A stretch of 64,000 bases of DNA, taken from Polyangia bacterium. GTDB lineage: Bacteria; Myxococcota_A; Polyangia; Nannocystales; Nannocystaceae. Made by a program: the position numbers and the translations under genes. Location of the stretch: positions 248,001 through 312,000 of the forward strand of contig JAUIKS010000002.1 of NCBI GenBank assembly GCA_030430565.1, written 5' to 3'. Positions 28,684-47,756 of this stretch are shown here, one piece after another. A model generated the notes under the pieces. That model saw only the letters and a list, made by a program, of their open reading frames with translations. It had not been told where the DNA came from and did not search any database. Each line of letters opens with the position of its first letter. The first letter of the stretch is position 1.

Positions 28684-30033
28684 TCACGCGCGACGACGCA
28701 GCATCAGGCGAATCGGCTTGTCCGACTTCAGCGTCGTCGACATCCGCGGCTGCGGCGGCGCGCCGTCGTCCACGACGACCGGGGTGAAGCGCGTGAGCAG
28801 CTGCGTGAGCGCCCGCTCGAGCTCGAGCAGCGCGAGCCCCTTGCCGAGGCAGATCCGCTGACCCGCGCCGAACGGCGACCACGCGAGGCGCGGCCGCGCG
28901 CGCGCGGCCTCGGCGTCCATGAAGCGCGCGGGATCAAAGCGCGCCGGGCTCGGCCACCAGCGCGGGTCGCGATGGATGAGCCATGAGTAGACGAGCACGA
29001 GCGTCCCCGCCTTGACCCTGAAGCCGCCCAGCACGTCGTCCGCGACCGCGCGCCGCGGGACCATCACGCCCGGCGGGTAGAGCCGCAGACCCTCTTGAAT
29101 ACACGCCCGCAGCAAGGGCTTGTCGTCGCCGTCGCCGTCGAGCTCCTCGCGCAGCGCCGCGAGCAGCTCGGGGTGCTGCGCGAGCAGCAAGGTCGTCCAC
29201 GCGAGCGAGGCGCCGGTCGTCTCGAAGCCCGCCGTGTAGATGAAGATCGCCTCGTCGCGGAGCTGCTCATCGCTCATCGCGCCGGCCTCGTCGGTCGCGT
29301 TGACCAGCATGCTCAGCAGGTCCTCGCCAGGACCCCGCTCGCGCTTGTCGGCGATGACGGCCATCAACGCGTTGTCGACTCGCTCCCGCGCCGCGGCGAG
29401 TCGCCCTCGCCCAGGCCGCGGCAGCCAGCGCGGCAGCTTGCGCAGGACCATCTCCGGGAGCACCGTCGCGAACAGCGCCGACATCGACTCCCGCACCTCG
29501 CGGATCTGCTCCAGCGGCAGGTTCGTCCCCAGCAGGATGCGGACGGTGAGCACGGACAAGAGGTCGTTGGACCACTGATCAAATTCGATGGGCGCGTCGA
29601 CCTTGACCGCGTCCAACGCCGAGCTCACCGTCTCGTCGATCATCCCGCGGTAGCCGGAGATCGCGGCGCGCCGAAAGCTGGGGAGCATGAGCTTGTGCTG
29701 TCGACGCCACAGCTCGCCCTCGCTCGCGCCGATCCCGTGCCCGAGGAGCTCGCGGGCGCTGTCCCAGAACTCGCCGCCCTTGTCGTAGCGATCGGCCCGC
29801 GTGATCAGCACCTCGTCGGCGGCCTCGGCGTCGCCGACGACCAGCGCCGTGAGCGGCCCGAGCTTCAGCTCAAAGATGGCGCCCTCGTCGGCGAAGACCT
29901 GCTCGAGAAAGCGAAACTGTCCCCGCAGCAAGCTCGCCAGCGAGCCGATCAACGGGAGCCCCTTGGGCCGCGGGGGACGCCGGCCCTCAGCGTTCGGGTC
30001 GTTGGGCGCTCGGGACGAAGGGCCGCGCGGCAT
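28684..30033 (-). CDS. Cytochrome P450
   Basis: 449 residues, full length for a bacterial P450. The oxygen-activating I helix is AGFETTGAS (about residue 268), the K-helix ExxR is EGLR, and the heme loop is FGAGQRICLG with the axial Cys near residue 397. The lack of a signal peptide and of a fused reductase means separate electron donors are required. The only ferredoxin in the window starts 366 bp away, divergently transcribed. P450-ferredoxin pairing is common, so this may be the donor, though that ferredoxin more likely serves the bilin reductase. Substrate unknown. Confidence 0.95.
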   Translation of the reverse strand: MPRGPSSRAPNDPNAEGRRPPRPKGLPLIGSLASLLRGQFRFLEQVFADEGAIFELKLGPLTALVVGDAEAADEVLITRADRYDKGGEFWDSARELLGHGIGASEGELWRRQHKLMLPSFRRAAISGYRGMIDETVSSALDAVKVDAPIEFDQWSNDLLSVLTVRILLGTNLPLEQIREVRESMSALFATVLPEMVLRKLPRWLPRPGRGRLAAARERVDNALMAVIADKRERGPGEDLLSMLVNATDEAGAMSDEQLRDEAIFIYTAGFETTGASLAWTTLLLAQHPELLAALREELDGDGDDKPLLRACIQEGLRLYPPGVMVPRRAVADDVLGGFRVKAGTLVLVYSWLIHRDPRWWPSPARFDPARFMDAEAARARPRLAWSPFGAGQRICLGKGLALLELERALTQLLTRFTPVVVDDGAPPQPRMSTTLKSDKPIRLMLRRRA

Positions 30034-30399: not shown

Positions 30400-30885
30400 A
30401 TGCGACAGGTGTACTTTGAGACAAGTCAAGACCCGATCGAGGTCGAGACCAACCGGCGGCTGCTCGACGCGCTGAAGGACTCCAGCGCCGACCTGCTGAT
30501 GGCCTGCGGCGGCAAGGGGCTGTGCGCGACCTGCCACGTCTACGTCGATCACGGCGCCGAGAACCTCTCGAAGATCACGCCGCGCGAGCAGACCACGCTG
30601 CGGATGATCACCGGGCTGCGCCCGAACTCACGGCTCGCGTGCCAGGCCAAGATCCGCCGCGGTCACGTCGAGGTCTCCAAGCCCGGCGGCCGCTACATCA
30701 CGAGCAGCTCACAGCTCGATCAGCTCGTCGGGCGACGGGCGCAGCAACGAATCCTCCACCCGATCGACGGCACCGTGCTCGTCGAGAGGGGGAAGATCAT
30801 CACGCGCAGCCGGATCCGCCGGCTCGCGCAGCTGGACATCGACGTAGCGACCATGCGTCGGCGCTCGATGTCGCTTCCCCGATAG
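30400..30885 (+). CDS. [2Fe-2S] ferredoxin with C-terminal extension (bilin cluster)
   Basis: 161 residues. The N-terminal 90 residues are a plant/adrenodoxin-type ferredoxin with cluster ligands Cys36, Cys42, Cys45 (ACGGKGLCATC) and Cys81 (LACQA). About 65 residues follow, containing GTVLVERGKIITRSRIRRL, a pattern unrelated to electron transfer. As first gene of the cluster it is the obvious electron donor for heme oxygenase and the bilin reductase seven genes downstream, both of which need reduced ferredoxin. An iron-sulfur protein is also a reported member of BBAG clusters. It is followed by the V4R gene after 70 bp. Confidence 0.92.
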   Translation: MRQVYFETSQDPIEVETNRRLLDALKDSSADLLMACGGKGLCATCHVYVDHGAENLSKITPREQTTLRMITGLRPNSRLACQAKIRRGHVEVSKPGGRYITSSSQLDQLVGRRAQQRILHPIDGTVLVERGKIITRSRIRRLAQLDIDVATMRRRSMSLPR

Positions 30886-30955: not shown

Positions 30956-31618
30956 ATGACAGTCACAACGGCGACCGCGGTCGAGATCGCGGGTGGGCAG
31001 CACGCGCTGCACAATCACTACACGAAGCAGAAGTTCTTCCGCTGGGACGGCGAGGGGCGCCTGTTCAACCGCATGAACCAGCGGATGATGCTCGTCTCCG
31101 AGGACTTCGTCGTCGGCTTTCAGGTCGCGCTCGACGAGGAGCTCGGCGACGCCGCCGCCGAGATTATGTACCGCTGCGGCCTCGAGTGGGGGAAGCGCGA
31201 CTTCGGCACCTTCGCGCGGGACTACGAGGCGGACTTCGGGCACCCGCTGCGCTCGGCGCCGATCGAGTACGTGCTCACCCAGTGGTGGTGGCCGCTGCAG
31301 ACGGCCGGCTGGGGCAACTTCACCTTCGACCTCAGCCGGCGCGCGGACGACCTGATCTTCGTCGACCTCTACGAGTCGGCGATCGCCAAGAGCGTCGGCA
31401 ACATCGGCAAGGTCGCCTGCCACTACTACGCCGGGCTGTTCGCCTCGGTCTTCGGAGAGCTGCTCGGGGGCCAGGAGCTCAGCGGGATCGAGATCCAGTG
31501 CTACTCGATGGGCGAGGACTTCTGCAAGTTCCTCATCGGATCCGCCAAGCGCATCAACGCCGCGCAGTTCTGGGTCCGCGAGGGCGCGACCGCGACCGAG
31601 GTCATCGACCGCCTCTAG
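30956..31618 (+). CDS. V4R-domain protein 1 (bilin cluster)
   Basis: 220 residues with AGGAG a few bases before the ATG. The C-terminal two thirds fit the V4R (4-vinyl reductase) fold also found in BchJ and in ligand-sensing regulators. Characteristic features are the CGLEWGKRDF helix near residue 75 and the late YSMGEDFCKFLIGSAK segment with its Cys. No DNA-binding or catalytic domain is attached. V4R domains are small-molecule binders, and in published BBAG clusters two V4R proteins are standard members. Here it may bind or deliver a bilin; that is inference. It is related at the N-terminus (RMMLVSEDF) to the second V4R-like protein downstream. Confidence 0.85.
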   Translation: MTVTTATAVEIAGGQHALHNHYTKQKFFRWDGEGRLFNRMNQRMMLVSEDFVVGFQVALDEELGDAAAEIMYRCGLEWGKRDFGTFARDYEADFGHPLRSAPIEYVLTQWWWPLQTAGWGNFTFDLSRRADDLIFVDLYESAIAKSVGNIGKVACHYYAGLFASVFGELLGGQELSGIEIQCYSMGEDFCKFLIGSAKRINAAQFWVREGATATEVIDRL

Positions 31619-31639: not shown

Positions 31640-32905
31640 ATGGGAGCGATCGACAGCATCACCCGAGGCCTGCGCCGCGCGCTGCGGGGCCCAGACCGAC
31701 CCACGCACCTGCGCGCCCTGCCCCCGGAGAACCAGGACACAGGCGCGCTGTACAACGAGCAGGCGCTCGCGCGCGCGCGGGCCGAGGACGAGCTGCGCGC
31801 GCTCCTCGAGCGCCTCGAGCGAGCCGCCGGCGACGCGGCCGAGCTCGACGCGAACCTGCAGGCCGCGCGCCGCGAGCTCAACGCATTAACCGAGAGACAG
31901 GCGGCGGAGCTGCGCGCGCTCGAGCGGATCCGCGGCGATCGGAGCGAGCTCGCCGCCGCCGTCGAGCAGCTCCGGCGCGAGCGCGGCGGCCTCACGAGCG
32001 CGCTCGAGTCGACGCGTCGCGAGACCGCCGAGCAGCTCGAGAAGCTGCGCCGCCATCGCGAAGAGGCCGACCGCAGGACCGAGCTCGTGCGCAAGCGCGA
32101 GGCGTCCCTGCAGCAGCAGCGCGAGCGCCTCGAGACCCTGCGCGACCAGGCGATCGCCGCCAAGGTCAAGTCGGAGGAGGCGCGCATCAAGGGCCTACAG
32201 CAGCAGGCCCAGCTCGAGCGCCAGCGGGCGCAGCTGAAGGCCGAGGCCGAGGCCCATCAGCGCGCCCGCGAGACTGCGGATGACGACCGTCGTCAGGAGC
32301 TCGCGCAGATCGAGCTGGAGCGCGCGCGCATCGAGCTGGCCCGCGCCCGCGAGGCGCTCGCGCGCGAGCGCGAGTCGGGCGGACCGGAGACCGAGCGCGA
32401 GCTCGAGCGGGCCCGCGACGAGCTGAGCAGGCTCCGCGAGCAGCTCCTGCGCGAGCGCGCCGCTCGTCAGGCTCCGCAGCCCGCGGCCGCGCCCGCGAGC
32501 CCGCCGGTCCGCGTGCAGCCGGCGGCGCCCGTCAGCGCGCCGCAGCCGGAGCCAGCGAGAGCCGCGCCCGAAGCTTCGCGCGAGCCAGTCCGCGTGCCGA
32601 CCGCGAGCACCTCGCCGAGCTCCGAGACGCGGGTCCGCGAGCGCGCCGCCGCGCCGACCCCACCCGCGCCCAAGCGCGCGCCAGCGAGGGCCGCCGCTGG
32701 CGAGCCCCTGCTCGCCCCCGAGGACGCGCGCAAGTCCGTCAGCGCGTTCTTCCGCTGGCACGACGCGAGCCCGGCCGCGGCGGGGGCGAGACCCTGGAGC
32801 GCGGACTCTGTCCGCGGCTACTTCTCTCGCTTCGGCCTCGAGCGCGCCGCCTCAACGCGGTCAGAAGACCGCCTGAGCACCCAGCGCTCGCGCGCCGCTC
32901 ACTGA
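31640..32905 (+). CDS. Long coiled-coil protein (bilin cluster)
   Basis: 421 residues. Residues 45-285 are an almost unbroken Ala/Glu/Arg/Leu coiled coil. A Pro/Ala-rich linker follows (about 290-365), then a short conserved-looking C-terminal block with SVSAFFRWHD and SVRGYFSRFGLE, which looks like a docking peptide or small helical domain. There is no signal peptide. It sits 21 bp after the first V4R gene. The layout (rod, linker, docking module) suggests a scaffold for the bilin proteins. No family is recognised, and high charge makes composition-based similarity searches unreliable. Confidence 0.8.
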   Translation: MGAIDSITRGLRRALRGPDRPTHLRALPPENQDTGALYNEQALARARAEDELRALLERLERAAGDAAELDANLQAARRELNALTERQAAELRALERIRGDRSELAAAVEQLRRERGGLTSALESTRRETAEQLEKLRRHREEADRRTELVRKREASLQQQRERLETLRDQAIAAKVKSEEARIKGLQQQAQLERQRAQLKAEAEAHQRARETADDDRRQELAQIELERARIELARAREALARERESGGPETERELERARDELSRLREQLLRERAARQAPQPAAAPASPPVRVQPAAPVSAPQPEPARAAPEASREPVRVPTASTSPSSETRVRERAAAPTPPAPKRAPARAAAGEPLLAPEDARKSVSAFFRWHDASPAAAGARPWSADSVRGYFSRFGLERAASTRSEDRLSTQRSRAAH

Positions 32906-33042: not shown

Positions 33043-33531
33043 GTGAACCTGTCCCTTGAAAACATGTTTAGCGCCGCCGCCGGGCGGTACCCGACCCGCG
33101 CCGAGAGCGCCATGCTGACGAGCTGGGCCGCGACCCTCGAGGCCCGGGTGGCCGCGGTCCACGAGCTCGCGGCGGCCGAGGAGAAGATCGTCAACCTCGC
33201 CGCCGCCGAGGTCATGCGCAGCTCGCCCGAGCTGCGACGACGCGGCGAGGAGACGCGGGCGAAGGCCGCCCGCGACATGGCGCTCGTGCTGCGTCACTGC
33301 GCGCACGCGCTGCTGCGAGACGACGTCGACTACCTCGACCGCGAGCTGCTCGTGTGGCTCCGCTCGGTCCTGCTGAGCCTCGGCTTCGACACGCGCTTCC
33401 TCGCCTCCTCCTACCGGCTGCTCGCGATCGCGGTCGAGGAGAGCGTCTCGCCGCGCGCGGCCAAGCTGCTCAAGCCCTACCTCGCCCGCTGCGTGCAGAC
33501 GCTGGGCGAGCGCCAGCAGGAGGCGTCATGA
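33043..33531 (+). CDS. Phycobiliprotein-like globin (BBAG-type)
   Basis: 162 residues, the size of an allophycocyanin subunit, from a GTG with AGGAGAG upstream. Residues 74-117 align without gaps to the central helices of phycocyanin: ARDMALVLRHCAHALLRDD matches the [20 protein letters not shown] region, followed by the matching LD and LG positions. Arg77 and Asp78 keep the residues that contact the bilin propionate and pyrrole nitrogens, but the chromophore-attaching Cys84 position is Ala75. It fits the bilin-biosynthesis-associated globins. Any bilin would be non-covalent or bound elsewhere (Cys86 is nearby). The stop overlaps the next gene by 4 bp. Confidence 0.85.
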   Translation: MNLSLENMFSAAAGRYPTRAESAMLTSWAATLEARVAAVHELAAAEEKIVNLAAAEVMRSSPELRRRGEETRAKAARDMALVLRHCAHALLRDDVDYLDRELLVWLRSVLLSLGFDTRFLASSYRLLAIAVEESVSPRAAKLLKPYLARCVQTLGERQQEAS

Positions 33532-34157
33532 GCCGCGGCGCGCTCAACTACTTCTCGACGCCCGGCTTTCTCGAGTTCGACAACCGCAAGGGCACGCTGC
33601 GAAGCCGCGGCGGGATGCGGATGCTCGGCGTCAGCGAGGACTTCCTGCGCGGCTTCGTCGAGGCCTGTGAGTACGAGACCGGCCCCGCGACGCCCGCGCT
33701 GCTGCGCCGCTGCGGAGAGTTCTTCGGCCGCCGCCTCGCGCTGTGGTTCGAGCGCGAGCTCTCGCAGCACGCCGCCGCGTCGATCCGCGAGCGCGACATG
33801 GCGGAGTTCAGCGCGCTGCTGCACGACCTGTGGCGCGGCCTCGGGCTCGGCGTCATCAGCGTCGACTGGCGCCACGGCGGCCGCGGCGTCATCGCGATCA
33901 AGATCGAGGACAGCGCGATGAGCACGATCGCGCTCGAGGAGCATGTCGGTGAAGACATGTTCGAAGGGCTGCTCGAGGGCTTCTTCACGAGCTTCTGCGA
34001 CGGGCCGATCCGCTGCGTCCAGACCGGCGACGCGCGCCTCGGGGACAAGCAGGGCACGACCTTCGTGATCGCCTCGCGCGCTCGCGAGGCCGAGCTGCGC
34101 GGGCTCAAAGAGCAGGGCGTCGCGCACGCGGAGCTCGTCGCGGCGATCGTCGCGTGA
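33528..34157 (+). CDS. V4R-like protein 2 (bilin cluster)
   Basis: 209 residues; the ATG overlaps the globin stop (ATGA), so the two are translated together. The N-terminal region RGGMRMLGVSEDFLRGFVEA is clearly related to RMMLVSEDFVVGF of the first V4R protein, and the helix CGEFFGRRLALWFE and late segment FTSFCDGPIRCVQTGD occupy the same places. It is more divergent from classical V4R domains than the first one. Two V4R proteins beside a phycobiliprotein-like globin are the reported hallmark of BBAG clusters. It probably partners the globin. Confidence 0.8.
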   Translation: MSRGALNYFSTPGFLEFDNRKGTLRSRGGMRMLGVSEDFLRGFVEACEYETGPATPALLRRCGEFFGRRLALWFERELSQHAAASIRERDMAEFSALLHDLWRGLGLGVISVDWRHGGRGVIAIKIEDSAMSTIALEEHVGEDMFEGLLEGFFTSFCDGPIRCVQTGDARLGDKQGTTFVIASRAREAELRGLKEQGVAHAELVAAIVA

Positions 34158-34176: not shown

Positions 34177-35694
34177 ATGATGAACCACGACGCCACCCCC
34201 GCCGCCAAGCCCGCCCCGCCGGTGATCCTCGGTCGCTACCGCGTCACCGGCAGGATCGCCGCGGGCTCAGTCGGATCGGTGCTCGCGGCCGTCGACGAGC
34301 GCACCGGCGCGCCCGTCGCGATCAAGTGCTTCGACGGCGGCTACGACAACTACGCGGCGTGGCTCGACGAGATGCGCCTGATCATGCGCCTGCGCCACCC
34401 CAACATCGTCGCCGTGCTCGACGTGGGCCACGACGACGGCTGGGAGCTCGACGTCTTGGTGTTCGCGCGCGCGCTGGGGGGCTCGCTGCGTCGCGCGCTG
34501 GTCCAGGGCCCGCGCTTTGATCGTCCGCAGATCCGCGCGCTGCTGCGCGCCGTCGCGACCGCGCTCGCCCACGCCCACGCCCACGGCGTGATCCACCGCG
34601 ACATCAAGCCGGAGAACATCCTCGCGCTCACGAGCGACGCGCGCCCGGTGTGGGCCGTGACCGACTTCGGCGCCGGGCGATCGCTGACGAGCGGCTCGGA
34701 GTTCTTCCACGGCTCGTTCGCGGGCTCCCCCGGCTACTACGCGCCTGAGCTGCTGCACGGGCGCGTCGGGCCGGCCCTCGACCAGTACTCGCTCGGGGTC
34801 GTCGGCGTCGAGCTGCTGCTCGGGCGTCGACCGGACCACAACGACTGCCTCGAGTTCGCGCTCGCGCACCACGACGCGCCGGGCCTCGAGGGGCTGATCG
34901 CGCGGATGATCTCGGTCGACCGAAGCCGTCGGCTGCCGAGCATGGACGCGGTGGCGCGCGCGCTCGCCAGCGACCGCGCGCCGGCGATCGATGTCACCCA
35001 CGATGATCAAGGCCGCCGGTTCGCGCTCGTCGGCAACGAGCTGCGCTGTCACGCCCCTGAGCAGGCGCCCAAGCGCGGCGTGGTCCCGCGGGCGCGCCGA
35101 TTCTGTAGCCTCCGCGGACAGCCGACGCTGGTCGCGGGCGAGCGCCGGCTCGTCTCGTTCACCACGCGCCCGCGCACCGAGTACGTCAGCGACAGCCCCT
35201 TCGAGACGCTCGCGGCGTCGCGCGAGCGCGGCGTCGCGTGGATCCGCCGCGGCGCGCGGCTGGTCCGCCTCGAGCTCTCGGGCCTCGAGGAGCAGGACTG
35301 CGAGCTGCCGAGCGCCGCGCTCGCGCTGCTCGACGCCGACCCCGGCGCGCGGCCGATCGGGGTCGTCGTCAGCGACAGCGTCGCGATCATCGGCGTCGCC
35401 GGGCGGGCGCGAGTGCTGTGGTGCTCGGCGCTGCGCGACCGGCTGCGCGTGACCTGCTTCGACACGCGCTCCCCGCTGTTCGACGGCTTCTTGTGCGCGC
35501 GCGGGCCGGTGCTGCTGTGCGGCGGCTCGACCGACGCCGTGCTGCTCGAGCCCACCGTCGACGGCCTGCGCGAGCTCGACCGCCGCAAGGCGAACGTCGC
35601 CAGCGCGCTGGTCGACGGCAAGAGCGATCCCCCGCGTCTGCTGCTCGACGCGCTCAGCGAGCGCGAGCGCGTCGGGAGCGGGGGGCAGCCATGA
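34177..35694 (+). CDS. Ser/Thr protein kinase (bilin cluster), predicted active
   Basis: 505 residues. The kinase domain (about 20-270) has a complete catalytic set: VAIKCF (ATP Lys), HRDIKPENIL, DFG in VTDFGAGR and YYAPELL. The glycine loop is AAGSVGSV. About 230 C-terminal residues form short hydrophobic strands and turns (for example GVVVSDSVAIIGVAGRARVLW) that look like a small beta-propeller or sandwich. No membrane segment is seen. It follows the second V4R gene by 19 bp and overlaps the pseudokinase gene (ATGA), so it is an integral member of the operon. Likely targets are the neighbouring proteins. Confidence 0.9.
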   Translation: MMNHDATPAAKPAPPVILGRYRVTGRIAAGSVGSVLAAVDERTGAPVAIKCFDGGYDNYAAWLDEMRLIMRLRHPNIVAVLDVGHDDGWELDVLVFARALGGSLRRALVQGPRFDRPQIRALLRAVATALAHAHAHGVIHRDIKPENILALTSDARPVWAVTDFGAGRSLTSGSEFFHGSFAGSPGYYAPELLHGRVGPALDQYSLGVVGVELLLGRRPDHNDCLEFALAHHDAPGLEGLIARMISVDRSRRLPSMDAVARALASDRAPAIDVTHDDQGRRFALVGNELRCHAPEQAPKRGVVPRARRFCSLRGQPTLVAGERRLVSFTTRPRTEYVSDSPFETLAASRERGVAWIRRGARLVRLELSGLEEQDCELPSAALALLDADPGARPIGVVVSDSVAIIGVAGRARVLWCSALRDRLRVTCFDTRSPLFDGFLCARGPVLLCGGSTDAVLLEPTVDGLRELDRRKANVASALVDGKSDPPRLLLDALSERERVGSGGQP

Positions 35695-37019
35695 GCCGCA
35701 GCGCGAAGTGGGGACGGGCCGAGCTGCTGCGCGAGATGGTCCGGCACTTCCTGCTGCGCAGCGGGGCGCCCGAGGACGAGCTCGAGTCGCTCTTCGACCT
35801 CCAGCGCGTCGAGCTCGACGATCTGATCGAGCGCCTGCAGTCCCGGGGCCTGCTCCAGCCGGGCGAGGCGCGCATCATCACCGGCGTCTGGCGCGGCTAC
35901 CTCAAGGGCCCGCTCGCCGAGCTGATGCCGTCCTTCGCCCCCGGCGAGCGGCGCAGCGCGACCCCCCCCGCGGGCGTCCCGATCGCCGCGGCGACCGCCG
36001 CTGCGCCGCTCGACCCCAACGAGCTGCCCGCCCCGCCGGTGTTCGGCACGCTCTCCGGGCCCGGGGTCCAGGATCGGGAGAGCGCGCTCGAGCTCGTCAC
36101 GCCCGCGCCGTCGGTCGTCAAGAAGAGCCGGCCGCGCGCGCCCGCGGGCGCGGACGCGACGGAGCGCCCGGTGATCGGGGAGCGCCTCGGCGTCTACACG
36201 ATCGCCGCGCGCCTCGGCGCCGAGCGCTGGAGCGACCTGTATCGCGTCGAGCGAGCGGAGGGGGAGCCCGCGGTCGCGCTCGCCCGCGTCCTCCGGGCCG
36301 ACGCGCCCCGCGAGGTCGCGCAGACGCTCCGCGTGCGCACGCCGTCGATGCTCAAGCTCCGCCACCCCGCGATCCTCGGCCCCTTCGCCGGCGGCACCTA
36401 CCGCGGGCGCCCCTACCTCGTGTTCCCCTTCATCGTCGGTCTCAACCTCGGCGACCACCTCGAGATCGTCGGCCAGCTCGAGCCGCGCGCGCTGCAAGAG
36501 CTCGCGGCGCAGCTCGTCGACGGGCTGACCGCCGCGCAGCGCGCTGGGATCGCGCACGGCGACGTCCGCCCCGAGCACGTGCTGCGCGACGACTCGCAGC
36601 GCTACAAGCTCACCGGCTTCGGCTTCTCGCCGACCCGCCACGCGCGCCTCGGAACGAAACCACCGACGCCCGTCGACGCGATGTACTGCGCGCCCGAGCA
36701 GCTCGATCACGGCGAGCCGATCGACCACCGCGCCGACATGTACGGCCTCGGCGCGACGCTCTACCGCGCGGCGGTCGGCCACGCGCCCTTCTGTGAGCCG
36801 CGGGTCGCCGACCCCGTGCAGGCGCGGCTGCACCGTGACCCGGTGCCGGTGGAGGTCCACGTGAGCGAGTTCCCGAGCCTGCTCTCGCACTTCATCAGCC
36901 GCATGCTGCGGCGCCGCCCCGAGGACAGGTTCCCCGCGTGGAGCGAGGCCCGCGCCGCGCTCCGTCACATCATCAACGTCGGCGGCCCGCGCGAGGCCGC
37001 GGTGGAGCGCCGCTCATGA
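35691..37019 (+). CDS. Pseudokinase of the Ser/Thr kinase family (bilin cluster)
   Basis: 442 residues; the ATG overlaps the active kinase's stop and much longer upstream frames are shadows. Residues 1-80 are a helical domain (LLREMVRHFLLRSGAPEDE). A Pro/Ala linker leads to a kinase fold (about 160-430) with degraded catalysis: the ATP-Lys region is VALARVL (no Lys), the catalytic loop is HGDVRPEHV, and DFG is GFG (LTGFGFS). APE (CAPEQL) and the C lobe are retained. It is probably inactive and could regulate or scaffold the adjacent active kinase. It overlaps heme oxygenase by 4 bp. Confidence 0.88.
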   Translation: MSRSAKWGRAELLREMVRHFLLRSGAPEDELESLFDLQRVELDDLIERLQSRGLLQPGEARIITGVWRGYLKGPLAELMPSFAPGERRSATPPAGVPIAAATAAAPLDPNELPAPPVFGTLSGPGVQDRESALELVTPAPSVVKKSRPRAPAGADATERPVIGERLGVYTIAARLGAERWSDLYRVERAEGEPAVALARVLRADAPREVAQTLRVRTPSMLKLRHPAILGPFAGGTYRGRPYLVFPFIVGLNLGDHLEIVGQLEPRALQELAAQLVDGLTAAQRAGIAHGDVRPEHVLRDDSQRYKLTGFGFSPTRHARLGTKPPTPVDAMYCAPEQLDHGEPIDHRADMYGLGATLYRAAVGHAPFCEPRVADPVQARLHRDPVPVEVHVSEFPSLLSHFISRMLRRRPEDRFPAWSEARAALRHIINVGGPREAAVERRS

Positions 37020-37822
37020 ACCTGTCTGTGAATACATCTCTTCACGCGCGCCCCCCCGCGCGCGCCGTCTCGCCGACGCGCGCCCCCGGCGGCCAGGCCC
37101 CGCTCTCGCTCGCGCTGCGCGAGGGCACACGCAAGGCGCATCGGCTGGTCGAGAGCGCGGGCTTCGTCCAGGCGCTGCTGCGCGGGGTCGTGGATCGCCG
37201 CGCCTACGCGCGCCTGCTCGCCGCGCTGCTGCGCGTCTACTCGGCGCTGGAGCGCGCGCTCGAGCGTCACCGTGACCACCCCGACGTCCGCGCCATCTAC
37301 CTCCCCGCGCTCGCGCGCCGCGACGCGCTCGCCCAGGATCTCGCGCTCTACGATCCGACCCGGGCGCTGCTGCGCGAGCCGCCCTCCCCGGCCACGCGCG
37401 CCTACGTGCAAAGGATCCTCCAGCTCGAGCGCGAGGCGCCCGAGCTGCTCGTCGCCCACGCCTACACGCGCTACCTCGGGGACCTCTCGGGCGGCCGCGT
37501 CCTCCGGGGCCTCGTCCAGCGCGTGCTTCGCCCGCCGCCCGGGCGCGGCCTCGAGTTCTACCGCTTCCCCGCCATCCCCGACCCGGTCGCGTTCAAGCAC
37601 GACTACCGCGCGCGCCTCGACACCCTGGGCACGAGCCCCGCGCGCGCGCAGGCGATCGTCGCCGAGGCGACGCGAGCGTTCGACCACAACCACGCGCTGT
37701 TTCGCGAGCTCGAGGGCAGCGCGCTGCGCACCGTGCTGCTGCTGCTGCGCAGCGCCAACCCGTTCCGTCAACGCGCCCACAACGCCGGAGAAGACCGTGC
37801 CCCAGAGCTTGTTCACACCTGA
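37016..37822 (+). CDS. Heme oxygenase
   Basis: 268 residues, with an extra N-terminal tail of about 28 residues. The proximal heme ligand is His42 in TRKAHRLVES, and the distal helix carries GDLSGG at residues 155-160, both diagnostic of HO-1/HmuO-type enzymes. It opens heme to biliverdin IX-alpha, CO and Fe(II), using reduced ferredoxin or another donor and O2. The product is the substrate of the reductase encoded next, whose start lies inside the last 26 bases of this gene. The start overlaps the pseudokinase stop. Codons at the start are unusually AT-rich, as in the globin gene (both begin Met-Asn-Leu-Ser). Confidence 0.95.
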   Translation: MNLSVNTSLHARPPARAVSPTRAPGGQAPLSLALREGTRKAHRLVESAGFVQALLRGVVDRRAYARLLAALLRVYSALERALERHRDHPDVRAIYLPALARRDALAQDLALYDPTRALLREPPSPATRAYVQRILQLEREAPELLVAHAYTRYLGDLSGGRVLRGLVQRVLRPPPGRGLEFYRFPAIPDPVAFKHDYRARLDTLGTSPARAQAIVAEATRAFDHNHALFRELEGSALRTVLLLLRSANPFRQRAHNAGEDRAPELVHT

Positions 37823-38624
37823 ATCTTTCGACACCTCCACCCCGATCCAGCGCGGCCTGCTCGCGCTGCTGAGCGAGGTCGAGCGCGCCTACGTCGACGC
37901 GCTCTCGCTGCGCGAGGTCTCGATCTCGCCGCGCTTCGAAACCCTCGCCGGCGGGATCGGAGAGCGCCGCCTGCTCCTCGAGACCAAGGTGTTCACCGGC
38001 GGCGCGCTCGAGCGGCTCACGATCGCCGTGATGTACACGCCGTCGCCCGCCGGGGCCCCGCCGGCGCTGGTCTCCTGCACCGTGAGCGCGCTCCCTGCCT
38101 TCGGGGTCGCGCTCCCGATCCTCGGCCTCGACTACGTCGCGCTCGGCAGCAAGCTCTCGCTGGTCGCCTTCGACCTGTCGCCCACCGACATCGAGACCTG
38201 GTCCGACGCGCGCAACAACCTCATCGACCTCAGCCGCCGCGCCGACGCCCGCCTGACCGCGCGCCCGCGGCCCCAGTTCGTCGACCAGACCTTCTCCCCG
38301 CTCGCCGTGTTCGCGCGCGCCGACCGGGAGTTCGCGGAGCTCGCCTGCGGTCTCGGCGTGACGCTGCTCGAGCGTCACGCGGGCCTCTGCGCCGCCGCGC
38401 GCCCGCTCCCCTTCGCGCGCGCGAACGCGGCGGACACCATGGTCGAGTGCTGGTGCGGGGCGATGCGCCGCAACAAGAAAGAGTCGCGCGCGCTGCAGCG
38501 CATCTTCGGCCCGGTCGCGGTCGACTACCTCGAGGACTTCCTGTTCACCCGAGACCACCGCGATCCCTGTCACGTCACGACCGCGAGCGACAGCCCCGCG
38601 CGACGCGTCCCCGCCTTCGCGTGA
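37797..38624 (+). CDS. Ferredoxin-dependent bilin reductase (PcyA/HY2 superfamily)
   Basis: 275 residues from a GTG with GGAG seven bases upstream. Family landmarks are LPILGLDYVALG followed by FDLSPTD (compare the LPMFGCDIV...DLSPT region of PcyA), and near the C-terminus NKKESRALQRIFG then YLEDFLF. By alignment from memory it keeps the proton-donating Asp (D105 of PcyA) and the Asn/Lys of the NxK motif, but lacks the PcyA residues Glu76 and His88. It should reduce biliverdin with ferredoxin electrons, but probably not to phycocyanobilin. It is the last gene of the cluster, and a pre-PcyA-type enzyme is the best guess. Confidence 0.88.
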   Translation: MPQSLFTPESFDTSTPIQRGLLALLSEVERAYVDALSLREVSISPRFETLAGGIGERRLLLETKVFTGGALERLTIAVMYTPSPAGAPPALVSCTVSALPAFGVALPILGLDYVALGSKLSLVAFDLSPTDIETWSDARNNLIDLSRRADARLTARPRPQFVDQTFSPLAVFARADREFAELACGLGVTLLERHAGLCAAARPLPFARANAADTMVECWCGAMRRNKKESRALQRIFGPVAVDYLEDFLFTRDHRDPCHVTTASDSPARRVPAFA

Positions 38625-38691: not shown

Positions 38692-41109
38692 CTACAGGTC
38701 CTCGGGGCGACCGGCGTCGGGCAGCGTGTAGTCGCAGACGCCCGAGGCCTCGAAGATCGCCTTGAGCTGGGTCAGCTCGTCGCCCTCAAAGACCACGCCG
38801 CCGTAGGTGCCGTCCTCGAGCGCGTCCTCGAGCTTCTTGGTCTGACACTTGAAGACATCGGCCGAGAAGTCCTCGCCCGCGACCATCCGCGGCCCGCGGA
38901 AGACCTCGTAGGTGTCCGCGCAGGGGCCGTTGTCGAGGTCCTCGACGGTCTGGATCCCGTCCCAGACATCATCGCCGCTGGCGACCATGTCGAGGCCGTC
39001 GGTGTAGCAGGCGTCGACCGCGTTGTCGGGCTTCTGCCCCTCGTCCAGCCAGATCTCGAGGGTCTCGAAGGCGTCGATCGCCAGCTCCATGAGCTCGCCG
39101 CCGGACGACCCGAGCCCCCAGATCACCAGGTTCGGCGTCGGCCCGCCCTGGGCGTCCTCCATCCGCTGGCGGATGATGAACGGCTGCTTCGAGTTGTGCA
39201 TGTCCAGCTCGGGCTCGAGGTAGGGCATGAGGTTGATGATCGGGTCCTCGATCTCGCCGAGGTACACCAGGCCGGCGTAGTAGGCCGTGTTCATCGCCTC
39301 GACGTCGCCCTCGGCCCGCGGCGCGACGGGCAGCCCGAGGCTCGAGGTCGAGTTGCGGGCGCTCCAGACGTCGAGGTCGTTGAAGTCGTCGCCGAAGAAC
39401 GGGAAGCCCTCCTGGACCATGTCGTCCGGCTGCTTCCAGCCGCCGATCTTGGCGTTGAGGTCGAGGAACTCCTGCTTCGTGATCTGCCCGTCGAGCAGCG
39501 CTTGGAGCCCGTACTGCACGCCGACGTTGTCCCAGGTGTTGCGGGCGTAGCCGTTCGCCGACTCGGGGTCCGGGCCGAAGATGTCGATTAAGTCGTCGTG
39601 GTAGGTCCACGCGGTCTGGGCGAAGCCCTCGGGGTCGTAGGACAAAATCTGCTCGTGGCTGTCGTCGATGTCGACCCAGTGGGGGTTGAGCGAGAGCGGC
39701 GAGAGGCCGCGCCAGCCCTCGATGCACTCGCCGCTGCCCGGGTCCGCGCTCGAGCCCAGCGGCTTGCCCTCGTTGAGAAAGTCCCAGCCGCTCGGCGCCC
39801 CGTTGATCGCGTTGAAGCCCTCGATCAGCTGGCGGTTCTCCCAGTCCTTCCACGTCGGGTTCGCGCCGTCGGTCACGTCGAAGTAGAACTCGAGCAGCTC
39901 GCAGTCGCCGACGCGGGTGGTCTGCGTGATCATGTCCGCGTAGGAGTGCGTGGGCACCAAGCCGTCGAGCAGCTCGGGGTGGTTCTGCTCGTAGACGTAC
40001 TGCTGGATCGCGCCGCCCGAGCCGCCGATGCCGAAGGTGTACTTGGGCTCGTTGTAGCGCAGCCGGAAGTGCTCCTTGACCATCACCGCGGTCGTGCCGG
40101 TCAGCTTCAGGTTGTAGGTCGTGTCGGTGACCGTGCCGCTCGAGTAGACGATCGCGTAGCCGCGCTCGAGCAGCGGCTGGTACAGCGGGCCGTCTTTGTA
40201 GGGGTCGTTGGCGACCGAGTCCTTGAGCCGGTTGACGCCGAGCCCGCTCGACTGCTGGTGCCCGATGCCGACGCCGCCGCCGAACCAGAAGATCAGGTTC
40301 TCGTTCCACGCGCTGAGGTCCGGCGAGTTCGGGTCGACCGCCGGCTCCGGCTCGAGCACCGCGACGCCGTAGACGAAGCGGTTGATGGTCCCGCGCTCGT
40401 AGCGGACGATGTAGTTGTACTCCTGCCCGTCGACCTCGATCGTCGCTACGTCATCTGGGAGGTTCTGCGGATCGGGCAGCGGGGTCAGCCCGCCCTCGGG
40501 GGGCGGATCGGTGGAGAGGTAGAAGTAGTTAACGCGGGTCTTCGCGCCGCAGTCGCGGCTCCAGCCGACGACCTCGTCGTTGTCGTCCAGCACCGGCAGC
40601 CCGACCTCGTCGAGGTTGTCGACCTCGGGCTGCCCGAGGCCGATGTCCTCGGTCCGGCAGGCGAAGGGGTACTGCAGCGGGTTCTCGGGATCGATCGGGC
40701 CCACGTCGCCGACCTCGACCGGGAACAGGCCGTCCCAGGGGTTGTCGCCGGTGTCGCTGTCGCCCTCGGTCTCGCCGCCCGTCGTCTCGCTCGTGGTCCC
40801 GTCGCTCGTGGTCGACGTGGTCGTGGTCGTCTCGGGCGTGTCGGTCGTCGCGTCGGTGCTGCCCGTCGTCGCGTCGGTGCTGCCCCCCGTGCTGCCCCCC
40901 GTGCCGTCCGTGACCGCGGTGCCCCCCGTGGAGCTGGTCGGGTCGCTCGCGCCGGTCGTCGCGGGCCCCGCGGTGGTGCCCGCGTCGGTGTCGGACGTGC
41001 CGGCGTCGGTCGCCGTGCCGCTGGTGTCATCGCCGCTGCAGGCGGGCGCGAGCGCGAGCGCGCAGAGCGTCAGCGCGAGCGTGGCGGTAGACGAATTCTT
41101 CAACATCAT
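38692..41109 (-). CDS. Secreted DUF6351-type alpha/beta hydrolase, lipoprotein
   Basis: 805 residues from the ATG at 41109 (GGAG nine bases upstream; an ATG codon follows directly). The signal peptide ends in LALAPACSG, then about 110 residues of Thr/Ser/Gly/Asp linker with repeated STDATTG units. The catalytic body has the nucleophile elbow GIGGSGGAIQQYV, and late segments DMHNSKQPFIIRQRMED and LGSSGGELME consistent with Asp/His placement of alpha/beta hydrolases. The architecture resembles the DUF6351 (tannase-like) family, recalled from memory. It is probably a surface-anchored esterase for large or plant-derived substrates. Confidence 0.75.
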   Translation of the reverse strand: MMLKNSSTATLALTLCALALAPACSGDDTSGTATDAGTSDTDAGTTAGPATTGASDPTSSTGGTAVTDGTGGSTGGSTDATTGSTDATTDTPETTTTTSTTSDGTTSETTGGETEGDSDTGDNPWDGLFPVEVGDVGPIDPENPLQYPFACRTEDIGLGQPEVDNLDEVGLPVLDDNDEVVGWSRDCGAKTRVNYFYLSTDPPPEGGLTPLPDPQNLPDDVATIEVDGQEYNYIVRYERGTINRFVYGVAVLEPEPAVDPNSPDLSAWNENLIFWFGGGVGIGHQQSSGLGVNRLKDSVANDPYKDGPLYQPLLERGYAIVYSSGTVTDTTYNLKLTGTTAVMVKEHFRLRYNEPKYTFGIGGSGGAIQQYVYEQNHPELLDGLVPTHSYADMITQTTRVGDCELLEFYFDVTDGANPTWKDWENRQLIEGFNAINGAPSGWDFLNEGKPLGSSADPGSGECIEGWRGLSPLSLNPHWVDIDDSHEQILSYDPEGFAQTAWTYHDDLIDIFGPDPESANGYARNTWDNVGVQYGLQALLDGQITKQEFLDLNAKIGGWKQPDDMVQEGFPFFGDDFNDLDVWSARNSTSSLGLPVAPRAEGDVEAMNTAYYAGLVYLGEIEDPIINLMPYLEPELDMHNSKQPFIIRQRMEDAQGGPTPNLVIWGLGSSGGELMELAIDAFETLEIWLDEGQKPDNAVDACYTDGLDMVASGDDVWDGIQTVEDLDNGPCADTYEVFRGPRMVAGEDFSADVFKCQTKKLEDALEDGTYGGVVFEGDELTQLKAIFEASGVCDYTLPDAGRPEDL

Positions 41110-41386
41110 GATCGCAATCTCCGTCGTGACGCGGGCGCGGCGCGCCCGGGGCGTGTGCACATGCAACTGCCAGCCGCGACTGCCTAGCGCGCGCCCGCGC
41201 GCCGTGTCAACGCGGCCGCGCGCCGCCGCCGCGTGTGTTCACGCCGCGCGCCGCCCTACGCCGCTGATGACGTCCGCACATGCGCGCCGCGCGGGCTGAC
41301 GCTTGACAAGGCCGACGCGCCGCGACCACGCTCAGGAGGTGAAGCTCGCGGGCGCGCTGCGCTATCTCCTATCTGCTCCTACAGAC

Positions 41387-42467: not shown

Positions 42468-45400
42468 ATGCAGACGATCGCCGGCCACGAGGTGCTCGAG
42501 CGTCTCCACGAGGGGAGGAGCCACGCGGTGCTCCGCGCGCGACGCGGCCCCGGCGACGCGACCGTGATCCTCAAGATGCTGCGCTCGCGCGTGCCCACGC
42601 AGGCCGCGGTCGCCGGGCTGCGCGGCGAGTTCTCGCTGCTGCGCGAGCTCGACGCCGTCGGCGCGATCAAGGCCAACGAGCTGATCAGCGATGACAACCT
42701 CTGGGTCCTCTCGCTCGAGGACTTCGGCGGCAGCTCGCTCGCTCGCCTGGCGCTCGCCGGCGCGATCCCGCTGCGCGAGCTGATCGCGCTCGCGCTCGCG
42801 CTCGTGGACGCGGTCGACAGCGTCCACGCCGCCGGCGTCGCGCACCTGGGGATCAGCGCCGGCAACATCGTCTGGAACCGTGAGACCGGCGCGCTCAAGC
42901 TCATCGACTTCGCGGCCGCCGCCCCGCGCGGGCCTCGGCGCCCGCGCATCAGCGACGCGGTGCTCCCGGCGGGCTCGCTCGGCTACATCGCGCCCGAGCA
43001 GACCGGCCGGATCAACCGCGTGATCGACTTCCGCTCCGACTACTACGCGATCGGCGTCGTGCTCTACGAGCTCCTGACCGGGCGCCGCCCGTTCGTCGCC
43101 GAGAGCCCCGTCGAGCTCGTGCACTGTCACATCGCGGTCGAGCCCACGCCGCCGCGCGAGCTCGACGCGCGCGTCCCCGAGTCGCTCTCGCGCGTGGTCC
43201 TCAAGCTCTTGGCCAAGCGCGCGGAGGACCGCTACCAGTCGGCGCACGGGCTGCGACGCGACCTCGAGCGGATCGCGGGCTGGATCGAGCGCGGCGAGGA
43301 CGACGCCAGCTTCACGCCTGGCGCCGAGGACACGCGCGAGAGCTTTCAGCTCGCCCAGGGTCTCTACGGCCAGGCGCGCGCGCTGGGCAAGCTCGGCGAC
43401 GCGCTCGCGCGGGTCCGCGAGGCCGGGGTCGCCACGGTCTTCGTCCGCGGCCAGACCGGCGCCGGCAAGTCCGCGCTGCTCGGCGAGCTCGGGCGCCTCG
43501 CCGCCGACGCTGGCGCGCGCTGCGTGGTCGGCCGCTTCGACCCCATCACGGCGCGGCTCGAGCCCCACGGCGCGCTGCTGCAGGCGCTGCGCGGGCTCGT
43601 GCGCCAGCTGCTCGGCGAGGACGACCGCGGCGTCGCGCGCTGGCGGGCGCGGATCCTCGTGGCGCTCTCGAGCAACGCGTCGCTGCTCGCCGAGTCGCTG
43701 CCCGAGCTGCGCGCGCTGCTCGGCCCGCAGCCCGCGATCCAGGCGCTGACCGGCGGCGCCGCGCGCCACCGCTTCCGGCTCGCGCTGCGCGGCTTCGTCG
43801 AGGCGCTGGCGACCCGCGACGAGCCGCTGGTGCTCGCGCTCGACGACGTGCAGTGGGCCGACGACGACTCGCTGATGCTGATCGAGGACCTCGCCTGCTT
43901 CGCCGAGGTCGACGGCCTGCTGCTGGTGGTCTCCTGTCTCGACGGACACTTCGACGGCGGGCTCGACGGCGGGCTCGACGAGGAGCTCGGCCGCGACGCC
44001 GTGGATCGGCTGCGCGCGCGCCTGCTCGAGCTCGGCGCGCCGCACCGGACCATCCAGCTCGACCCGATCGGGCCCGCCGACATCACGCGCCTCGTCGCCG
44101 ACACGCTGCTGTGCGCGCGCGCGCGCGCGGCCCCGCTCGCGCGCGTCGTCCACGACAAGACCGCCGGCAACCCGATGTTCGTCCGCGAGTTCCTCAGCGA
44201 GCTCCACGCCGCCGGCGCGCTCCGCTACGAGCGTTCGGCGCGCGCATGGACATGGTCGATTGACCAGATCGAGCGCAGCGACGTGACCGCGAACGTCGTC
44301 GAGCTGCTCGCGCGCCGGCTCGACGAGCTGCCGCGAGCGCTGCGCGAGGTGCTCACGACCGCCGCGTGCCTCGGCCGCAGCTTCGACGCCGCGCGGCTCG
44401 CCGCGGTCGGCGAGCACGACACCGCGACCTGCCGCGCCGCGCTCACGCGGGCGGCCGCCGAGGGCTTCATCGTCGACCTCGGCGACGACAGCTACCGGTT
44501 CACGCACGAGCGCGCGCAGCAGCTCGTCTACACGAGGATCGCCGAGGCGCGCCGCGCCGAGACCCACCGCCGCGCCGCCGAGCGGCTGCTCGAGGGCCTC
44601 AGCGAGGACGCGGCCAAGGACTCGCCGGAGCTCTTCACGATCGTCCGCCACCTCAACGCCGGGCGCACGGGCGACGCGCTCCCGCCCCGCCCGAAGCGGG
44701 CCGCGCGGCTCAACCTCGCGGCCGGCCGGCGCGCCCGACGAGCGGCCGCCTACGCGCCGGCGCACGAGTTCTTCGAGGTCGCGGCCTCGCTGTGCGCGCG
44801 CGCGCCGTGGGACCAGCTGCGGCTGGAGGCCTACCTCGACGCCGCTGACACGGCCTACCTCACCGGCGACCACGCGCGCGCTGAGGCGCTGATCCAGGAC
44901 GTGCTCGTGAACGCCCGCTCCACGCTCGAGCGCGCGCGCGCGCTCGAGCTGCGGGTCCAGAGCCACACCGCGCGCGACGACCTCGACGGCGCGCTGCGGG
45001 CCGCGCTCGCCGGGCTCCGCGAGTTCGACGTCCACATCAGCGAGCACCCCGGGCGCCTCGACATCCTGCGCGAGCTCGCCTCGCTGCGCGCCCGCCTGCT
45101 CGGCCGCCGCGTGTCGGCGCTGCGCAGCCTCCCGCGGATGCGCGACGCGAGGGCGCAGGCGATCGCCCGGCTGATCCTCGTCGCGCTCCCGCCGGCCTTC
45201 CGCGCCAACCAAGAGCTCTACGTGCTGCTCGCGCTGCGCGTCGTCATCCTCTCGCTGCGCTACGGGCAGTCGCCGGCCTCGCCGATGGCCTTCGTCACCT
45301 GCGCGCACCTGATGTGCTCGGTGCTCGGCGACGTCGAGACCGGGATGGAGTTCGCGGCGCTCAGCCGCGAGCTCAACAGCTCCATCGGCGCGCCCGAGTT

Positions 45401-47756
45401 CCGCGCGATGACCCCCTTCGCGATCGGCGCGCTGATCAACCACTGGCGCGAGCACGCCAAGCGAGACCTCGACTTCCTCCGCGACGCCAAGCGGGTCGCC
45501 CTCGAGACCGGCGCGATCGAGTACGCGGCCTACTGCATGAGCAGCGAGTCCGGCTACGCGATGGTGCTCGGCGAGGATCTCGAGGAGGTCGCGCTGCGGG
45601 CGACCGAGAACGCGGCGGAGCTGCGTCAGACCGGCAACCCGATCTTGACCATGCTCGGCGAGTTTCACCTCGACGCGATCACGGACCTGCGCGACCCCGA
45701 CGCGCGCCTGCTGACGCTGCTCGGCGGCGACTCGACCGTCGACGCGCGCCGCGATCAGATCAGCCGCTCCGGCGACGTCACGGTCATCAGCACGGTCGGC
45801 GTCATCCGCATGATGCTCGCGCTGTACTTCGAGCGCTTCGAGCTCGGGCGCGCGGTCTCCGAGGCGCTCGCGCCCGCGCTCGAGAGCCTGTCGGGTTTTA
45901 TCTACCTGCCCGTCTACCGGTTCGCCGACGCGCTCTCGCTGCTCGCGGGCGCGCGCGACGTGCACGGGCGCGCCCGCGCCCGCGTGCTCAAGCGGGCCCG
46001 CGCCGGGCGGCGAGCCATCGCGCGCTGGGCTCGCCTCGCGCCGATGAACTTCGAAAACAAGGTCGCGCTGATCGACGCCGAGCTGGCGCGCGTCGAGGGG
46101 CGACACGGCGACGCGCGCGAGCACTACGACCACGCGATCCGGCTCGCTACGCGGCACGGGTGGACCCACGAGGCCGGCCTCGCCTGCGAGCTCGCGGCCC
46201 GCTACTACCTCGGGCGCGACATGGGCTCGCTCGGCGGCCACTACCTCCGCCGGGCGCGACACAGCTACATCCGCTGGGGCGCGCGCGCCAAGGTCAGCGA
46301 GCTCGAGCGGCGCTACGCCGCGCACCTGCAGCTCCACGACGCGGTGTTCGAGGAGCGCGCCGACCCGAGCGCGCGCGAGCGGACCGAGACCGGCTCGCAG
46401 CTCGCCTCCTCCCTCGACTTTCACAGCGTGCTCAAGGCCTCGCAGGCGATCGCGGACAAGATCGTGCTCGACGAGCTGCTGCGCACGCTCATGCGGACGG
46501 TGCTCGAGAACGCGGGCGCGAGCCGGGGCGCGCTCGCGCTCGAGCGCGCCGGCCAGTGGCTCGTCGAGGCCCACGGCGCGCCGTCGGCCGAGTCGATGCG
46601 GGTCCTCGAGGGGGCGCCGGTCTCGGCCGCGCACCTGCCGATGTCCGCCTTTAACCTGGTCGTGAGGACGCGCGAGCCGCTGGTCGTCACCCACGCGACG
46701 CGCGAGGAGCCGTTCGCGCGTGACCCCTACGTCGTCACCCATCAGCCCCAGTCGCTGCTGTGCGTGCCGCTGCTCCACCAGCGCGCGCTGCTCGGCGTGC
46801 TGTACCTCGAGAACGACCTGATCCCGAGCGCCTTCACCCACGAGCGCCTCACGGTCGTCAACCTGCTCTCTACGCAGATCGTGATCTCGATCCGCAACTC
46901 GGCGCGCTACGGCGACCTCGAGCAGGCGGTCGCCGAGCGCACCGCCGAGCTGCGCGAGACCAACGACTCGCTGAGCGCGAGCAACCGCGAGCTCGACGCC
47001 TTCGCCCACACCGTCGCGCACGACCTCAAGATCCCGCTCGGCACGCTGATCGGCTACGCCGAGCTGATCGCCGAGGAGCCCGAGCTCGACGCCGAGGAGC
47101 TGCGCGAGCTCGTCGACAAGCTGCGGCGGACGAGCCACGACATGGCGACGATCGTCGACGAGCTGCTGCTGCTCGCCAGCGTGCGCCGCGGCCAGGTCAC
47201 GCCCCGCGCGGTGGCGATGGCCGAGGTCGTCGATCGCAGCCTCGACCGCCTCTCCGGGATGCTCGCGCGGCACGGGCTCACGCCCGCCGACATCGAGCGA
47301 CCGACGCGGTGGGAGCCCGTGCTGGGCTACGCGCCGTGGATCGAGGAGGTCCTGGTCAACTACCTCAGCAACGCGCTCAAGTACGGCGGCCGGCCGCCGC
47401 GCGTCGAGCTCGGGCAGCTGCGCGAGCCGGACGGCGCGCTGCGCTGCTTCGTGCGCGACAACGGGCCCGGCGTCGATCCGGCGATCCAGGATCGGCTGTT
47501 CAGCGAGTTCGCCCAGCTGGAGAACGCCCGGGTCGACGGGCACGGCCTCGGCCTCTCGATCGTGCAGCGCATCATCACGCGCCTGGACGGCCGCGTGGGC
47601 GTCGAGACCGCGCCCGGCGAGGGATCGAGCTTCTACTTCTGCCTGCCCGCGCCGCCCGACGAGGCGCGCTCCGTGGACGCCGCGGACGACGAAACCTCGG
47701 ACGAAGCGGCGGACGAAGCGGCGGACGAAACGGAGACCGCCGCGCCGACCTCCTAG
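42468..47756 (+). CDS. Giant kinase-like / AAA ATPase / GAF / histidine kinase fusion
   Basis: 1762 residues in the layout of the HstK-type multidomain kinases of cyanobacteria and myxobacteria. Residues 1-280 are a Ser/Thr-kinase fold; the ATP Lys is kept (VILKML) but the catalytic loop is HLGISAGNI (Asp replaced by Gly) and DFG is DFA, so it is probably a pseudokinase. An AAA/STAND ATPase follows with Walker A GQTGAGKS near residue 330 and LALDDVQWAD as Walker B, then a long helical repeat region, a GAF domain (about 1320-1470), HisKA with HTVAHDLKIPL near 1513, and HATPase with NYLSNALKYG, DNGPGVD and GHGLGLS. The histidine kinase looks active. Confidence 0.93.
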   Translation: MQTIAGHEVLERLHEGRSHAVLRARRGPGDATVILKMLRSRVPTQAAVAGLRGEFSLLRELDAVGAIKANELISDDNLWVLSLEDFGGSSLARLALAGAIPLRELIALALALVDAVDSVHAAGVAHLGISAGNIVWNRETGALKLIDFAAAAPRGPRRPRISDAVLPAGSLGYIAPEQTGRINRVIDFRSDYYAIGVVLYELLTGRRPFVAESPVELVHCHIAVEPTPPRELDARVPESLSRVVLKLLAKRAEDRYQSAHGLRRDLERIAGWIERGEDDASFTPGAEDTRESFQLAQGLYGQARALGKLGDALARVREAGVATVFVRGQTGAGKSALLGELGRLAADAGARCVVGRFDPITARLEPHGALLQALRGLVRQLLGEDDRGVARWRARILVALSSNASLLAESLPELRALLGPQPAIQALTGGAARHRFRLALRGFVEALATRDEPLVLALDDVQWADDDSLMLIEDLACFAEVDGLLLVVSCLDGHFDGGLDGGLDEELGRDAVDRLRARLLELGAPHRTIQLDPIGPADITRLVADTLLCARARAAPLARVVHDKTAGNPMFVREFLSELHAAGALRYERSARAWTWSIDQIERSDVTANVVELLARRLDELPRALREVLTTAACLGRSFDAARLAAVGEHDTATCRAALTRAAAEGFIVDLGDDSYRFTHERAQQLVYTRIAEARRAETHRRAAERLLEGLSEDAAKDSPELFTIVRHLNAGRTGDALPPRPKRAARLNLAAGRRARRAAAYAPAHEFFEVAASLCARAPWDQLRLEAYLDAADTAYLTGDHARAEALIQDVLVNARSTLERARALELRVQSHTARDDLDGALRAALAGLREFDVHISEHPGRLDILRELASLRARLLGRRVSALRSLPRMRDARAQAIARLILVALPPAFRANQELYVLLALRVVILSLRYGQSPASPMAFVTCAHLMCSVLGDVETGMEFAALSRELNSSIGAPEFRAMTPFAIGALINHWREHAKRDLDFLRDAKRVALETGAIEYAAYCMSSESGYAMVLGEDLEEVALRATENAAELRQTGNPILTMLGEFHLDAITDLRDPDARLLTLLGGDSTVDARRDQISRSGDVTVISTVGVIRMMLALYFERFELGRAVSEALAPALESLSGFIYLPVYRFADALSLLAGARDVHGRARARVLKRARAGRRAIARWARLAPMNFENKVALIDAELARVEGRHGDAREHYDHAIRLATRHGWTHEAGLACELAARYYLGRDMGSLGGHYLRRARHSYIRWGARAKVSELERRYAAHLQLHDAVFEERADPSARERTETGSQLASSLDFHSVLKASQAIADKIVLDELLRTLMRTVLENAGASRGALALERAGQWLVEAHGAPSAESMRVLEGAPVSAAHLPMSAFNLVVRTREPLVVTHATREEPFARDPYVVTHQPQSLLCVPLLHQRALLGVLYLENDLIPSAFTHERLTVVNLLSTQIVISIRNSARYGDLEQAVAERTAELRETNDSLSASNRELDAFAHTVAHDLKIPLGTLIGYAELIAEEPELDAEELRELVDKLRRTSHDMATIVDELLLLASVRRGQVTPRAVAMAEVVDRSLDRLSGMLARHGLTPADIERPTRWEPVLGYAPWIEEVLVNYLSNALKYGGRPPRVELGQLREPDGALRCFVRDNGPGVDPAIQDRLFSEFAQLENARVDGHGLGLSIVQRIITRLDGRVGVETAPGEGSSFYFCLPAPPDEARSVDAADDETSDEAADEAADETETAAPTS

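Follow-up and report, generated by a model that had tools for sequence, protein, structure and literature searches.

A probable pre-3 bilin reductase from a bilin gene cluster of a myxobacterium, predicted to form phytochromobilin and not phycocyanobilin

Pre-PcyA enzymes, a family described recently and ancestral to the cyanobacterial PcyA, have been proposed as the source of phycocyanobilin (PCB) synthesis and hence of the phycobilisome. Clusters for the pre-3 type occur mostly in Myxococcales and combine a heme oxygenase, an Fe-S protein, two V4R proteins and a BBAG globin (PMC10151467). The pre-3 enzyme MBL9008304 yields phytochromobilin through a two-electron reduction of the A-ring and phycoerythrobilin through a four-electron reduction, not PCB; the pre-2 enzyme tested gives phytochromobilin only, and PCB was made by none of the pre-PcyA enzymes tested (PMC10151467). 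An Fe-S protein, two V4R proteins and BBAG are also found in the cyanobacterial slr0144-slr0152 cluster, which contains ferredoxin 5 (Fd5) and the kinase SpkG; unlike the locus described here, the cyanobacterial clusters are devoid of heme oxygenase and ferredoxin-dependent bilin reductase (FDBR).

A 64,000-nucleotide stretch of DNA from a Polyangia bacterium, hereafter the window, carries a reductase that is very probably a pre-3 pre-PcyA enzyme of a myxobacterial bilin cluster, predicted to produce phytochromobilin, perhaps phycoerythrobilin, and not PCB. The pre-3 kind of enzyme is already known. The additions made here are a possible replacement of the reductase and a widely kept kinase, both of which are modest.

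Gene cluster in the window

The cluster lies on the plus strand in the order given in Table 1. It is the pre-3 cluster of PMC10151467 plus kinases, as heme oxygenase, Fe-S protein, two V4R proteins and BBAG are common to both. With it, a non-photosynthetic myxobacterium should hold the genes predicted to turn heme into bile pigment. Kinase 2 overlaps the start of the heme oxygenase gene by 4 bases, and the reductase gene begins inside the heme oxygenase gene, sharing its last 26 bases. Three relatives from two families carry ferredoxin, V4R-A, BBAG, V4R-B and the two kinases in the same order as the window, and kinase 2 is kept there, adjoining the FDBR.

Table 1 Features of the bilin cluster, numbered by position in the window
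Feature	Position	Strand	Evidence
[2Fe-2S] ferredoxin, likely electron donor	30400..30885	+	Pfam Fer2 6.8e-11; 56-59% identical to same-place ferredoxins of three relatives
V4R-A	30962..31618	+	Pfam V4R 1.7e-14; V4R-A tree; 62-67% identity to relatives
Coiled-coil protein between V4R-A and BBAG	31640..32905	+	Weak SMC-like coiled-coil match only; no Pfam family matched
Phycobilisome-domain globin BBAG-3	33043..33531	+	Pfam PF00502 2.2e-24; BBAG tree
V4R-B	33528..34157	+	Homology, 50-58% identity to relatives' V4R-B; V4R-B tree; no Pfam match by itself
Ser/Thr protein kinase 1, directly 3' of V4R-B	34177..35694	+	Pfam Pkinase 1.2e-36
Ser/Thr protein kinase 2	35691..37019	+	NCBIfam kinase families
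Heme oxygenase, myxobacterial pre-3 type	37016..37822	+	Pfam PF01126 9.8e-63
FDBR, pre-3 type	37797..38624	+	275-aa open reading frame, GTG start

Just upstream of the cluster, a cytochrome P450 is encoded on the opposite strand (28684-30033), and a tannase-like DUF6351 protein lies directly downstream, also on the opposite strand (38692-41166). Further along, positions 42468-47756 encode a very long signalling protein that joins a protein kinase, an AAA ATPase, a GAF domain and a histidine kinase in one chain.

Reductase family, pocket and clade

The bilin reductase seen in the original prediction is a real gene with an intact frame, and both sequence and fold place its product in the FDBR superfamily. 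Pfam PF05996 (FDBR) matches it at 2.7e-9 and 37.4 bits, above the cut-off of 31, and phmmer matches a solved PcyA at 2.7e-4; among structure sequences, only PcyA was matched, apart from one unrelated entry at E 0.33. An AlphaFold2 model computed from eight homologues (pLDDT 87.9, pTM 0.85) gave PcyA 4qcd as its best Foldseek match (E 1.9e-12, TM-score 0.83 on target), followed by PebB, RCCR, PebA and HY2; superfamily and fold are likewise shared with PebS. The NCBIfam PcyA equivalog model gives 40.6 bits, far below its cut-off of 206, and identity to PcyA in the profile alignment is about 19%. Identity to the other pre-3 proteins compared is only 29-37%, and the hairpin is 4-5 residues longer than in all others of a ten-protein pre-3 alignment. 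It is the sole FDBR detected in the genome, which is about 88% complete.

The register of the pocket was taken from a profile-profile alignment of ten pre-3 proteins, drawn from this and other genomes, with eight cyanobacterial PcyA proteins (E 1.4e-18), and thus from sequence profiles and not from superposition of the model; a separate alignment, of 42 FDBRs, places the residues in the same columns. With Synechocystis PcyA residues in brackets, the correspondences are T75 (H74), A77 (E76), S93 (I86), T95 (H88), D112 (D105), N226 (N219) and K228 (K221). The Asp of the GLDYVA motif and the Asn-x-Lys of RNKKES are therefore kept, as had been predicted. The alignments place no Glu at the Glu76 site and no His at the His88 site, so the proposed absence of Glu76 and His88 stands. 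The residues that had been named at these sites are one to two positions off: the Thr/Ile assigned to Glu76 are Thr75 and Ile76, which align with His74 and Leu75, and the Ser assigned to His88 is Ser93. A Ser at the His88 site results from a two-residue gap put in by the phmmer alignment with PcyA, and is ruled out by the profile-profile alignment together with the ungapped alignment of the ten pre-3 proteins. There are no gaps between the Thr95 strand and Asp105, the 17-residue spacing from Thr95 to Asp112 equals that from His88 to Asp105, and Thr95 is nearly invariant among pre-3 homologues, with an unshifted register.

Across the 42 sequences, the pre-3 pattern A-T-D-N-K/R differs from the E-H-D-N-K of PcyA, while pre-2 has Asn at 88; PebA and PebB keep Asp105, have Asn at 88, are without Asn-x-Lys and form separate clades. 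Thr at the His88 site is a pre-3 feature (Rockwell et al. 2023, PMC10151467), and MBL9008304, compared by its description and not by sequence, has the same pocket as the window reductase (Asp105, Thr at His88, no Glu76). A tree of 46 FDBRs puts the window reductase within a 13-row pre-3 set (support 98/91), labelled from residues and cluster context and not from published pre-3 sequences, that stands apart from pre-2, PcyA, PebA and PebB. Other FDBR-like proteins of Myxococcota (L008, L011, L012, L014, L017, L020) form a separate clade of their own (99/97), with Asp105 present and Ala, Val or Ser at His88.

Predicted product and bilin acceptor

The heme oxygenase would supply biliverdin by opening the heme ring, and the reductase would be fed single electrons, probably from the cluster's own [2Fe-2S] ferredoxin. 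Reduction of the A-ring, with Asp112 as the central proton donor, would then lead to phytochromobilin, and further reduction at C15 perhaps to phycoerythrobilin. Phytochromobilin, with or without phycoerythrobilin, is the product expected by homology at 29-37% identity, a distance at which regiospecificity could differ. No PCB is predicted, because Glu76, required for reduction of the 18-vinyl group, is Ala in the reductase.

The original prediction had seen an early FDBR that fails to complete the four-electron reduction to PCB. That the enzyme does not make PCB is likely right, given its place in the pre-3 clade and the products of the sole tested member. Incomplete four-electron reduction, on the other hand, cannot be read from the site, since that same enzyme also performs a four-electron reduction. 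The further proposal of an uncommon dihydrobiliverdin finds no backing in the phytochromobilin and phycoerythrobilin formed by the tested pre-3 enzyme (PMC10151467). A reductase that stops at an isolated 15,16- or 18-vinyl-reduced dihydrobiliverdin is improbable: two-electron FDBRs such as PebA exist and the window protein is divergent, but PebA-type pockets differ at Asn219/Lys221, the residue on which 18-vinyl reduction depends is missing, and pocket and clade fit pre-3, where the enzyme tested acts on the A-ring (PMC10151467). Marginally less probable still is an inactive enzyme, or one recruited to bind bilin without reducing it. The loss of His88 and Glu76 would suit such a protein, as would the relatives L030 and L032, which have Glu for Asp105, L032 being also without the Thr; against it, the reductase has all of Asp105, Asn219 and Lys221, its confident model resembles PcyA, and the gene is retained beside heme oxygenase in one cluster with a ferredoxin. 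Synthesis of PCB through an alternative proton route is highly improbable, for although some algal HY2 proteins make PCB (PMC13193486), so that other lineages of FDBR can acquire 18-vinyl reduction, Glu76 is absent and no tested pre-PcyA has yielded PCB (PMC10151467).

The predicted product would likely be taken up by the BBAG globin. Motif alignment shows that this globin reads KAARD at the CXRD chromophore site, with Ala for Cys, which prevents covalent attachment at the usual site. The loss is not special to the window, as most BBAGs in the sample are also without this Cys; it is absent as well in the congener BBAG (L026, 6282-6782). The BBAGs of the window, L026 and L027 have a Cys eleven residues beyond the CXRD site (LRHC/LRYC). 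A phytochrome was considered as acceptor and rejected, since the genome, about 88% complete, yielded no PHY domain.

Possible reductase replacement and the kinases

Sericytochromatia are non-photosynthetic and a sister group of cyanobacteria. Three FDBR trees join the window reductase to the pre-3 of L048, a Sericytochromatia MAG, with support of 99/94 (46 rows), 95/98 (20 rows) and 96/95 (10 rows). An AU test rejects both a single clade of myxobacterial pre-3 (p 0.027) and one that unites the window reductase with those of its two family relatives (p 0.021), p-values that are optimistic because the groups were named after the tree was seen. The neighbouring genes group differently: the window lies with Myxococcota and L048 outside for V4R-A (98/97), V4R-B (100/99) and BBAG (96/97), and the heme oxygenase falls among those of the myxobacterial type (100/100) in a tree without the heme oxygenase of L048, which was not found. 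According to Rockwell et al. (PMC10151467), the heme oxygenase in pre-3 clusters of Sericytochromatia is a different one. Moreover, in other myxobacterial clusters with both genes after kinase 2, the FDBR comes before the heme oxygenase; in the window the order is swapped, and kinase 2 abuts the heme oxygenase.

The tree conflict and the swapped order are most simply read as in situ replacement, in which the cluster lost its first FDBR and a different pre-3 arrived downstream; we give this event an even chance. The reductase, myxobacterial by cluster and of Sericytochromatia by grouping, is a candidate case of exchange, recent or ancient, between the two groups known to have pre-3. A recent transfer marked by odd composition was rejected, as the GC (0.721) and GC3 (0.946) of the gene match its neighbours, so any replacement is old or came from a similar genome. 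Instead of replacement, old pre-3 paralogues may have been sorted by loss, and such paralogues do exist in L030 and L032. The pairing with L048 may also reflect attraction of two long branches; no second Sericytochromatia pre-3 to break the L048 branch was found in 18 genomes of the class. Within a sample of 386 Cyanobacteriota genomes, the matches listed besides L048 were weak, with E-values of 1e-13 or worse and identities of about 23-32%, and no second close relative was recognised.

The second, pre-3-like paralogues lie at L030:9270-10034 and L032:2220-2954 (minus strand), both with Asp105 changed to Glu; that of L032 has Ala where pre-3 has Thr, and that of L030 follows an apparent V4R+STAS fusion gene (8146-9207). 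L139, which is related to them, keeps the Asp.

Kinases are not counted among the cluster's genes in the main text of PMC10151467, where the word 'kinase' occurs once. SpkG, the last gene of Synechocystis slr0144-slr0152, is the proposed kinase of ferredoxin 5, whose phosphorylation depends on it (PMC11863333); ferredoxin 5 is encoded by slr0148 in the same operon (PMC7363133). Kinase 1 of the window stands in the same place as the SpkG-type kinases of other clusters, and in many cyanobacteria a kinase follows the second V4R gene, as it does here. The cluster might serve as a bilin-loaded signalling module and not as a pigment route, with the two adjoining Ser/Thr kinases reading out bilin that V4R proteins and the Cys-less BBAG have bound, and a Sericytochromatia-type reductase swap re-setting bilin specificity; we consider this speculative and rather unlikely.

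The first kinase is kept adjoining V4R-B from myxobacteria to cyanobacteria. Among 60 V4R clusters whose sequence runs at least 2.5 kb past V4R-B (loci L037-L116), 37 have a same-strand kinase starting within 2 kb of it, mostly within 200 bases, although some of these adjacencies could be chance because kinases are common in myxobacteria and planctomycetes. The adjacency extends over four phyla (Myxococcota, Planctomycetota, Sericytochromatia and part of Cyanobacteriota), which makes it a testable lead on the role of BBAG/V4R clusters. In many cyanobacteria, the spacing is 41 bases, a recurrence that partly reflects related genomes.
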